Assembly (NCBI GenBank): GCA_944390795.1
Contig: CALXRI010000027.1
Coordinates: 1 to 39,143 of the forward strand
Length of the DNA: 39,143 nucleotides
Direction of reading: 5' to 3'
From: an uncultured Victivallales bacterium
GTDB lineage: Bacteria > Verrucomicrobiota > Lentisphaeria > Victivallales > UBA1829
Below the pieces are notes generated by a model. The model saw only the letters and a list, made by a program, of their open reading frames with translations. It did not search any database and was not told the DNA's origin. Each line of letters opens with the position of its first letter. Within the stretch, counting starts at the first letter, position 1. Below are positions 30,029-39,143 of this stretch, in pieces. Made by a program: the position numbers and the translations under genes.

Positions 30029-30146
30029 GGAAAAACCGGGGTTTCGTGCTCCTCCGCGCGTCCGCCGGATCGCTGCAAGGGGCTGCCTTTGAATCTCCGG
30101 AAAAATGCGTCAGCTTCCGCTTTCCCAATGAGAAGGAACATTTCTT

Positions 30147-33100
30147 ATGATCAGTGAATTTTTCATCCGGCGGCCCCGCTTCGCCATTGTTCTGGCGATC
30201 CTCTTTCTGCTCAGCGGGCTGATCGCCGTCTTTACGCTTCCTGTCACGCTCTACCCGGACATCACGCCGTCGGTCATCACGGTTTCCGCGCATTACCCCG
30301 GCGCCGATGCGCAGACGGTGCTCGACACCGTGATCCAGCCGATCGAATCGCAGATCAACGGCGTCAAGAAAATGATCTACATGTCCTCGACGGCGACGGA
30401 CGATGGTTCCGCCTCGATCAAGGTGACGTTCGACATCGGCACCGACGGCGACACGAATACGGTCAACACGCAGAACCGCGTCAACTGGGCGTCCGCGCAG
30501 CTTCCGCAGGAGGTGCAGCGCCAGGGGGTGATCACCAAGGAGGCATCCAGCAACATTCTCGCCGTCATCACGCTCTATTCGCCGAAGGGGACCTATGACG
30601 AACTGGCGCTGAGCAATTTCATGTCGATTTCGATCAAGGACGAAATCGCGCGGATTCCGGGCGTCGGCGACGTGACGGCGTTCGGCGAGATGACCTACGC
30701 CATGCGCATCTGGCTGGACACGATGCGCATGGCCTCGCTGAAGGTCACGGTGGAGGATGTTGAAAATGCAATCACGGTGCAGAACGTGCAGGTCTCGGCG
30801 GGCGCGCTCGGCGACGCTCCTTCCGATCATGCGCAGACGGAGCGCCTTTCCATAGCCGCGCAGGGGCGTCTGGCGAATCCCGAAGAGTTCGGCGCCATTG
30901 TGATCCGCTCCAACCCGGACGGTTCGCAGCTCCGGCTCCGCGATGTCGCGCGCGTCGAAATGGGTGCGGAGACCTACAGCGGCGTGACAACCCTGAACGG
31001 GAAGCCCGCCGCGATGCTGGCCGTCTACCAGCTGAACGAGGCCAACGGCCTGGAAATCGCAAAAGAGATTCAGAACCGCCTGAAACGGCTCAAGGGAACC
31101 GTTTTTCCCGAGGATCTCGAATACGGCGTCCAGTATGACACGACCCGGTTCATCACATCGTCCATCAACGAGGTGAAGGACACGCTGTTCGAGGCGGTGC
31201 TTCTGGTTGTTCTCGTCACATTTCTCTTCCTTCAGGACTGGCGTTCGACCCTGGTGCCGACGATTGCCATTCCCGTCTCGCTGATCGGCACGTTCGCGGT
31301 CATGCTGGCGGCCGGATACAGCATCAACATGACGACGCTGTTCGGGCTGATTCTCGCAATCGGCATCGTGGTGGACGATGCCATCGTCGTCATTGAAAAC
31401 GTCAGCCGTCTGATGGAGGAGGAGCATCTTCCGCCGAAGGAGGCCGCGCTCAAGTCCATGCGCCAGGTGACCGCTCCGATCGTTGCGACGACATCGGTGC
31501 TGCTTGCGATGTTCGTTCCCGTCTGTTTTCTGCCGGGCATCACGGGAGAGATGTACCGCCAGTTCGGCATTACGATTTCCGTGGCGGTTTTTCTTTCCAT
31601 GATTAATGCCCTTACGCTCAGTCCGGCGCTTTGCGCGCTGCTTCTCAAGCCCGTGGATCCGAACCGGAGAAAGTTCTTCTTTTTCCGCTGGTTTGACGCG
31701 GGATTTGAAAAACTCGCGCGCGGCTATTCCGCGGTTGTGAAATCGCTTCTCCGGAAATCCGTCCTCGTGATTCTGCTGTATGCCGCGATGGGGGCGGGTG
31801 CGCTCAAGCTCTACACGATCCTTCCGACCGGTTTTGTCCCGAACGAGGATCAGGGCGCGTTTTTCGTGAGCGTCCAGCTGCCGGACGGCGCGTCGCTTGC
31901 GCGCACGTCGAAAGTGACGGAAAAGGTCGCGGCGCTGCTGCGCGGCATCCCTGAAGTGCAGGATTTCATCTTCGCTTCCGGGTTCAACATCCTGAACGGG
32001 ATCAATGCTTCCAACTGCGCGTTCGGCATCGTGATCCTGAAAGACTGGTCCGAGCGCGAAGAGTCCGGTCAGGGGCAGGATGCGGTTCTGGCGAAGTTTT
32101 ATGCGAAGGCCCGGCAGATTCCCGACGCTTCGGTCATTCCGTTCGGTGTGCCCGCAATTCCCGGGCTCGGCACGACAGGCGGCTTTTCGCTGATGCTTCA
32201 GGACACTTCGGGGAACTTGAAACCGCAGGCGTTCCAGAAGATTCTGAACAGGATTCTGGTGGAGGCCGGCAATTCCCCGGTTTTTTCGAACGTCTATTCG
32301 ACCTTCCGCGCCTCGTTCCCGCAGGTTTATCTCGACATCGACCGCGAAAAGGCGATCCGTCTCGGCGTGACGCCGGACAGCATCAACACCGCGCTCCAGG
32401 CAGTCTTCGGTTCCGCTTACGTGAACGACTTCAACAAATACGGAAAGTCCTACAAGGTCAAACTCCAGGGCGACAAGCTCTTCCGCGACGACGTCCGCGA
32501 TCTTTCCAAAGTCTATGTCCGCAATGACAGGGGGGAAATGGTGCCGCTCGGCACGCTGGTCGACATCCGTTACAATTTCGTCCCGCAGTATCTGACGCGC
32601 TACAACATGTTCCAGTCGGTTTTGATCAACGGCTCTGCCGCGCCCGGTTACAGTTCCGGGCAGGCGATGAATGAAATGGAGAGAATCGTGAAGACGGTCG
32701 ATCCGTCGCTCTCGTTCGAGTGGACGGACATGTCCTATCAGGAGAAGCTTGCGGGCAACCGGATCGTGATCGTTTTCGCCCTTGCGCTGCTGTTCATCTA
32801 CCTCTTCCTCGTGGCGCAGTACGAGAGCTGGATGATTCCCTTTTCGGTTCTGCTGTCGGTGCCGGTGGCGTTTCTCGGCGCGGTGCTGTCGCTTTATTTT
32901 CTCGGAATTGAGAACAACATCTACACGCAGGTCGGTTTTGTGCTTCTTTTCGGCATCGCCTGCAAGACGGCAATCCTGATCGTGGAGTTCGCCAAGGAGC
33001 AGCACGAGAAAGGCATGGGGATTCCGGAGGCGGCGGAATATGCCGCACGCCTGCGTTTCCGCGCGGTTCTGATGACGGCGGTCTCCTTCATCCTCGGCAC

Positions 33101-38184: not shown

Positions 38185-38553
38185 TCAGGAGATTTCCGCA
38201 AGACGGCGCGCGGCCTCTTCGGCGGTTATTCCGCCGCCTTCCAGCTCATGGATGATCTTCAGACGTTCCGTCCGGCGGTCGAGGTCGAGGTCTCTGAGAT
38301 GCGCGATCACCCGGTCCAGACGGTTCCGGACGGTCGGATAGGAGAGTTCGAGAATTTTCCCGACCTCCTTCAGGGAACCGGCGGAAAGGAGAAAAAGTTC
38401 GATGAATTCGCGGTCCTCGGCGCTCAGGCGTGCCAGGCGCGGGAGTTTGAGATTTCCTTCGACGGCGAGTCCGCAGGCGCCGCATTCCATACGAGTAATG
38501 TGCAGTTCGCCGCCGCAGTTCTGACAGGTCTTCGAAAAATGATCTTTTGCCAT
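38185..38553 (-). CDS. DUF2089-family zinc-ribbon / helix-turn-helix regulator
   Basis: A 122-residue protein with an N-terminal zinc ribbon (C10-x2-C13 and C24-x2-C27), the LPRLARLSAEDREFIELFLL segment typical of DUF2089, and a sigma-like helix-turn-helix (GSLKEVGKILELSYPTVRNRLDRVI, about residues 58-86). A C-terminal helical segment (AEEAARRLAEIS) resembles the short SHOCT-like tail seen in this family. It probably binds DNA and controls its own operon. The AUG has a GGAG-containing site upstream, and the promoter lies in an AT-rich region. Confidence 0.85.
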   Translation of the reverse strand: MAKDHFSKTCQNCGGELHITRMECGACGLAVEGNLKLPRLARLSAEDREFIELFLLSAGSLKEVGKILELSYPTVRNRLDRVIAHLRDLDLDRRTERLKIIHELEGGGITAEEAARRLAEIS

Positions 38554-38613: not shown

Positions 38614-38671
38614 GATTATAATTAATAAAATTTAAAATAAAATTAATAAAGTTAATATTCTCCCTTGAACG

Positions 38672-38875
38672 GAAGAATGCGCGAGCATTCTTCTCGGGGT
38701 CAAGGGTCGTTGACCCTTGTCGTGATCCAGCGTCGAAACGCTGGTCGTGCGGAGCACGAAATTCCCGCCCGGAGCGGTTCAGACTGCTCATTGACGAGAA
38801 CTTTTCGTTAGAAAAGTTCGAGAGCTCCGGGCGTATTCATTGAGACGGAAGAATGTGGGCGCATTCTTCCGTCTC
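38672..38875. repeat. Cluster of perfect hairpins in non-coding DNA
   Basis: Six perfect stem-loops follow one another: 38672-38693 (9-bp stem), 38701-38719 (8 bp), 38727-38744 (7 bp, CGAA loop), 38745-38759 (6 bp), 38798-38819 (9 bp) and 38842-38875 (14 bp). The first and last share the 11-base word ACGGAAGAATG and its complement, so they are probably diverged copies of one element. No gene is visible in this interval. Confidence 0.8.
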
Positions 38876-38918
38876 TTTAATAGTAATGAACCACGAGAGC
38901 TTCGATTATATCCCCGAT

Positions 38919-39000
38919 GTTGTACACTGTGCCGGCGGCTCTCGAAGCTTCGCTTCTCGTCCTTTAGCGTATGGAACCGCCGCCGGAGGAGATTTCGCGC
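38919..39000. repeat. Direct repeat, copy 1 (82 bp, period 143 bp)
   Basis: This unit is repeated at 39062-39143 with a single difference (T at 38923, C at 39066). Within it CCGGCGG (38932-38938) can pair with CCGCCGG (38980-38986), enclosing an inner GAAGC-TTC-GCTTC hairpin. Its last bases (TCGCGC) pair with the GCGCGA that follows (39004-39009). Confidence 0.9.
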
Positions 39001-39032
39001 TTTGCGCGACCAACTTACGCAGCTGGAGCGCG

Positions 39033-39051
39033 GCAGGACTGAAAGTCCTGC
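39033..39051. repeat. Perfect hairpin in the spacer between the direct repeats
   Basis: GCAGGACT-GAA-AGTCCTGC is an 8-bp perfect stem with a 3-nt loop, lying between the two repeat copies. No T-run follows, so it is not an intrinsic terminator. Confidence 0.8.
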
Positions 39052-39061
39052 ACGAATCAAA

Positions 39062-39143
39062 GTTGCACACTGTGCCGGCGGCTCTCGAAGCTTCGCTTCT
39101 CGTCCTTTAGCGTATGGAACCGCCGCCGGAGGAGATTTCGCGC
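39062..39143. repeat. Direct repeat, copy 2 (runs into the window edge)
   Basis: Identical to 38919-39000 except for one base. Identity continues up to the last base of the window, so the true repeat is probably longer and the array may continue to the right. Confidence 0.9.

Follow-up and report, generated by a model that had tools for sequence, protein, structure and literature searches.

A hairpin array at a Victivallales contig edge is a mosaic copy of an order-specific palindromic repeat superfamily with probable IS200/IS605-type MITE members

The dense hairpin array at the right edge of the window (the whole stretch of 39,143 nucleotides analyzed here, contig C27 of a 3.44-Mb, 66-contig genome) is one mosaic copy of a dispersed repeat belonging to a Victivallales-specific superfamily of palindromic interspersed repeats. 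This superfamily is built from three DNA hairpins in a fixed arrangement (the triad), mostly with an end hairpin beside them. Taking the evidence together, we consider it likely that the array is a mosaic copy of approximately 395 bp, that the 144-bp members of the superfamily are IS200/IS605-type MITEs, and that recombination has shaped the composites.

Results

Layout of the hairpin array

Between positions 38672 and 39143 (472 bp), we counted eight non-overlapping perfect stem-loops with stems of 6 to 14 bp and loops of 3 to 6, in agreement with the original prediction of an unusually dense array. Dinucleotide shuffles of the region hold a mean of 0.83 and a maximum of 4 such hairpins (n = 300), and 472-bp windows over the whole 39 kb average 0.75. 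Compared with shuffles, the array folds with z-scores of −8.2 on the plus strand and −8.6 on the minus strand. Two further claims were reproduced: an 82-bp repeat with copies at 38919–39000 and 39062–39143 (99% identical, spacing 143), and a hairpin word, ACGGAAGAATG, that occurs twice, at 38669 and 38845. The true start of the element is 38669, and one full copy, the window copy of about 395 bp, finishes near 39066. Its interior comprises two larger stem domains (38766–38833 and 38931–38986) and a 14-bp perfect stem (38842–38875). We built a covariance model, R1, from 40 copies of the 98-nt unit at the left end. Because the right end is an inverted copy of this unit, matched by R1 on the minus strand, the element is bounded by inverted triads. 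The features are as follows.

38185..38553, minus strand: DUF2089 zinc-ribbon/HTH regulator gene (Pfam PF09862, E 9e-20)
38669..38766, plus strand: 98-nt hairpin unit, end hairpin plus inverted hairpin triad (R1, 117.8 bits, E 5e-27; this unit is itself in the training alignment, A1)
38672..38693, plus strand: hairpin a, GAAGAATGC-gcga-GCATTCTTC, 9-bp stem
38701..38719, plus strand: triad hairpin 3, CAAGGGTC-gtt-GACCCTTG, 8-bp stem
38727..38744, plus strand: triad hairpin 2, CCAGCGT-cgaa-ACGCTGG, its CCAGCG core kept across the order
38745..38759, plus strand: triad hairpin 1, TCGTGC-gga-GCACGA, abutting hairpin 2
38766..38833, plus strand: domain 2, a 10-bp outer stem of CGCCCGGAGC (38766–38775) and GCTCCGGGCG (38824–38833), conserved in 12 near-full copies and enclosing further hairpins, including 38798–38819
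38842..38875, plus strand: 14-bp perfect stem, GAGACGGAAGAATG/CATTCTTCCGTCTC, with the second copy of the end-hairpin word
38931..38986, plus strand: domain 3, stem CCGGCGGC...GCCGCCGG around GAAGC-ttc-GCTTC, conserved in copies
38988..39078, minus strand: right end, inverted 98-nt unit with the triad reversed (R1, 44.6 bits, E 2e-9), hairpins at 38995–39009 and 39033–39051
39062..39143, plus strand: partial second copy of domain 3 at 143-bp spacing, stopping at an assembly break

The model also gives weak minus-strand matches at 30037–30128, a decayed-looking triad in the gap upstream of an RND-transporter-like gene, and at 30309–30414, inside that same gene and probably due to chance.

Genomic context and the contig edge

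The array lies between the DUF2089 gene and a divergent MarR gene (PF01047, E 7e-13) on contig C46; both flanking genes are seen in L009, a near-identical locus in the uncultured Victivallales MAG BRZ_DM__bin34. The first 65 bases of C46 are the last 65 of the window, after which C46 runs collinear with L009 into the MarR gene. Rightward extension, advised at the outset, is thereby achieved, and the window edge is an assembly break. The intact ortholog L009 contains three tandem copies, two partial and one full, and lacks the 143-bp duplication. Since L009 is without this direct repeat and the second copy in the window is cut by the contig end, the duplication at 39062–39143 is uncertain and may be either real or a product of assembly. 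A similar 186-bp duplication is present at L013, and the contig of the G003 ortholog likewise stops just past its copy. The earlier worry about a contig-end artefact therefore applies to the 143-bp duplication and to nothing else in the array.

Among the 35 element sites at which both neighbors were called (simple coding-score gene calls), the flanking genes are co-directional at 21, convergent at 14 and divergent at none. The window site is an exception, being divergent (DUF2089/MarR); in L009, promoter-like sites flank it on either side.

A repeat superfamily of the order Victivallales

A BLAST search of the region against its own genome returned 73 matches, about a dozen of them nearly full length, so the repeat is plainly present elsewhere, its absence being one of the outcomes against which the original prediction had been set. 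R1 has 95 matches in the host genome at E ≤ 0.01 and, at E ≤ 0.001, hits in 47 of the 137 Victivallales genomes; when 388 genomes sampled from across the phylum were searched at E ≤ 1e-4, 24 carried a match, 23 of which fall inside the order. Full copies begin ACGGA(A/G)AATGC, and most finish in a terminator-like hairpin and T-run, for example AAAATTGC..GCAATTTTTTT. In distant relatives the layout of the triad is fixed: TCGYGC-n3-GCRCGA abuts CCAGCG-n6-CGCTGG, and a 7-nt linker leads to a third perfect hairpin whose sequence is free. Modules occur in both orientations and in several arrangements, copy number differs between sister genomes, and orthologous arrays frequently gain or lose units of roughly 90–190 bp. 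Our literature search on Victivallis and Lentisphaerae repeats found nothing describing these elements.

Two other features of these genomes were observed. A third repeat family of about 94 bp with three hairpins (GGCAAGCC.., GCAGGTG..CACCTGC and GTGAGGGC..GCCCTCAC) occurs at L026, L088 and L023, around AGACGGCAGGCTTGCC...CCCTCACGTTCT, in tandem copies whose number varies among sister genomes. Separately, L011 (G000:C24:37900-45000, in the host) and L079 (G002:C15:52000-60000) carry a segment of roughly 2.5 kb in opposite orientation, with a 570-aa gene that has no Pfam match and with inverted repeat copies at its flanks, as if flipped by recombination between them.

The 144-bp sister family is mobile

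In a sister family, 144 bp long, the triad of the window is flanked by two other hairpins; three sister genomes contain 49, 53 and 46 matches to this family. The element ends read TTTATT|CAAAAAAATTTAGGTTAATACC-GCGATGCtctGCATCGC hairpin on one side and RATACC-hairpin-GGTAA|TTTATT on the other; each end has a subterminal hairpin, and terminal inverted repeats are absent. A DDE-type MITE was considered and rejected, since the outermost sequences do not form inverted repeats. Nearly all copies have AATAAA (TTTATT) on both sides.

Five comparisons of filled and empty sites are available (L037/L070; L182/L199 and L200; L188/L197; L189/L209 and L210; L172/L208). Clean empty sites hold TTTATT/AATAAA once, and filled sites hold it on both sides. 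The 144-bp repeats thus move, by insertion next to TTTATT (AATAAA). The flanking TTTATT allows two readings, a 6-bp duplication or the target together with the end of the element; L189, with a TGATT target and TTCATT at the element end, fits insertion without target duplication. In two cases the inserted DNA is a tandem pair of different elements with a common AATAAA, which indicates how arrays grow. The proposal of an integration hot spot accordingly survives in one sense, in that insertion beside an existing copy yields tandem arrays, and in no other.

At L043 (G000:C7) and L044 (G000:C6), the 144-bp element lies immediately at the T-run of an intrinsic-terminator-like sequence, and the TTTATT target may favor such sites. 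Six host contigs (C3, C8, C15, C37, C38 and C47) and many G003 contigs end inside a 144-bp element, which makes this family one of the chief reasons why the assemblies of these MAGs break.

A likely Y1 transposase partner in relatives

At locus L113, the end hairpin of the MITE stands beside a Y1-transposase gene, and a search with the L113 C-terminus turned up relatives in 19 of the 137 genomes. Eight Y1 loci finish just past the transposase gene in RATACY-hairpin-GGTAG|TTCAT, where the MITE end is RATACC-hairpin-GGTAA|TTTAT. Nine of 13 Y1 loci have this end pattern, and a further 45 occurrences lie elsewhere, always at MITE-like ends; 13.7 Mb of shuffled sequence gave 2 hits. L213 displays the other end too, TTTATT|CTTTTGGGTTTAATACC-CCGACCCtctGGGTCGG, that is, TTTATT|C...TTTAATACC-hairpin, like the MITE. 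The enzymes of L230 and L212, which have such ends, are IS200/IS605 TnpA by both Pfam and NCBIfam, at over 118 bits. Because Y1 genes in relatives share the end hairpin and TTCATT/TTTATT with them, we assign the 144-bp repeats to IS200/IS605-type MITEs. The original prediction had offered a REP/MITE-like palindromic family and the secondary-structure signals of a mobile element as two of its options, and both are borne out by the dispersed copies, the insertion polymorphism and the IS200/IS605-like ends.

Y1 TnpA of the L113 subgroup was not found in the host genome (G000) or in its two closest relatives (G002 and G003), which suggests either action in trans followed by loss or a copy that was not assembled. 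The host does have an IS200 remnant, L049 (G000:C3:75106-78246), of another subgroup, with a TnpA C-terminus like those of L111 and L112; this decayed copy was considered as partner enzyme and rejected, the locus having no MITE ends.

These arrays are organized like those of REP/BIME/REPIN elements, in which REP-like palindromes are spread by a dedicated RAYT (TnpA_REP) (PMC2817692, PMC3733652, PMC3116915). Both consist of high-copy intergenic palindromes in mosaic alternating arrays with inverted triads here, and the orientation tally above shows the bias toward gene 3′ ends known for BIMEs. Membership in the RAYT/REP class nonetheless failed: no RAYT was found, the host has only the IS200 remnant, and the intact Y1 proteins tested from relatives score 27–32 bits against REP_Tyr_transpos, whose cut-off is 80. 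Moreover, G003, G019 and G026 are rich in copies yet give no Y1_Tnp hit, and the unit consists of three to four different hairpins at fixed spacing. Inspection by eye of both strands of 38669–38766 revealed no GTAG/CGTC foot tag, CGTC occurring only within stem or loop. We therefore regard a REP/BIME system as unlikely.

Relation of the window copy to the MITEs

The insert at L188, absent at L197, combines the first end of the MITE with a right end of the 395-bp type (...GCACGAATCAAAACTGCTATCGCAATTTTTTTTAATTTTTTTG|AATAAA), and contig C46 closes its copy in nearly the same letters as this hybrid. The left boundary of 395-bp copies (ACGGAAGAATG) has no constant target flank and differs from the left end of the MITE. 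None of the orthologs compared provides a clean empty site for a 395-bp copy, L012 and L080 differing by unrelated sequence. The window element is best read as a mosaic of the same parts as the mobile hybrid, and it may have been mobilized in the same way.

Stem pairing appears to be maintained in DNA

Covariation, which we had been advised to look for, is abundant: compensatory stem changes are frequent among copies and relatives. In the 40-copy alignment, double-sided changes fill 45 cells compared with 12.8 in shuffles, and order-wide they fill 217 compared with 57, in an alignment that, having been fitted to the model, is biased toward it. At one pair of hairpin a, for instance, 10 of the 40 copies show G-C/A-T double changes. 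Double-sided changes occur almost without one-sided intermediates; among the one-sided states, G-U and A-C number 6 versus 10 in one count and 17 versus 10 in another. An Rfam scan of the window gave no match above the gathering score. With no clear excess of G-U over A-C and no Rfam family, the pairing is probably kept at the DNA level.

These data bear on the idea that the array is a gene for a structured non-coding RNA, or a regulatory RNA, that has multiplied within the genome. This idea would account for the very stable folds (z about −8), the compensatory changes and the terminator-like hairpin with T-run that closes full copies on the right. It is highly improbable, however, given the lack of an RNA signature in the Rfam scan and the one-sided states, the equal folding of both strands, the presence of modules in both orientations and several arrangements, and copies that are highly variable and mosaic and differ in number between sister genomes.

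Inert repeats are another explanation, with unselected hairpins whose palindromes are kept by template-switch (quasi-palindrome) correction and which spread by recombination only. The scarcity of one-sided intermediates and the absence of strand asymmetry fit this idea, and such correction could still be the source of stem perfection. As an account of the whole family it is very unlikely, since it leaves unexplained both why elements insert cleanly at a fixed target in unrelated places and why their ends are shared with Y1 elements.

Discussion

We favor a mosaic repeat with IS200/IS605-type MITE members, apparently spread through Victivallales, which are gut bacteria, by single-strand transposition as in IS200/IS605 elements. 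In this scheme, a Y1 (HUH) TnpA would bind single-stranded DNA at the subterminal hairpins. It would cleave at the TTTATT/TTCATT signals and insert the element on the 3′ side of a TTNATT-type site, which for most copies is TTTATT. Insertion would regenerate the target and so permit tandem arrays, and homologous recombination between copies would add, remove and shuffle modules, giving composites like the array in the window. The enzyme presumably acted in trans and is now lost from the host genome, and the 395-bp copy may have arisen by the same transposition route together with recombination.

Like IS200/IS605 elements, the 144-bp repeats lack terminal inverted repeats, have a subterminal hairpin at each end, insert on the 3′ side of a short fixed target, and share their ends with Y1 TnpA genes, here in relatives. 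They differ in that the enzyme is missing from the host genome, the target is TTTATT/TTNATT, and the MITE holds a three-hairpin cargo that also exists alone. IS608 and ISDra2 target TTAC and TTGAT, respectively. The comparison is with IS200/IS605 elements and TnpA-only MITE derivatives, including IS608 and ISDra2 (PMC6006769, PMC2806898). Class 3 TnpA-associated repeats with a CnGA foot stand between IS and REP (PMC6006769); they too are high-copy hairpins, and some hairpins of the window family follow CCGA, but CnGA fits only some of the feet here.

The triad, which exists both alone and inside MITEs, is not part of the ends of transposase-bearing elements. Conceivably, though we are doubtful, it is a separate DNA-level repeat class with its own recognition protein or a host function, such as termination or chromosome organization at gene 3′ ends.

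What is new is the order-specific family; its broad kind, IS200/IS605-related palindromic repeats in BIME-like mosaic arrays, is known. In practical terms, the repeats break MAG assemblies, and many contigs in these genomes finish in them. They also offer a natural test of how REP-like repeats could arise from IS200/IS605 elements without a RAYT. A poorly studied order thereby gains its own hairpin-repeat family, currently or recently active, with a traceable single-strand transposase partner.
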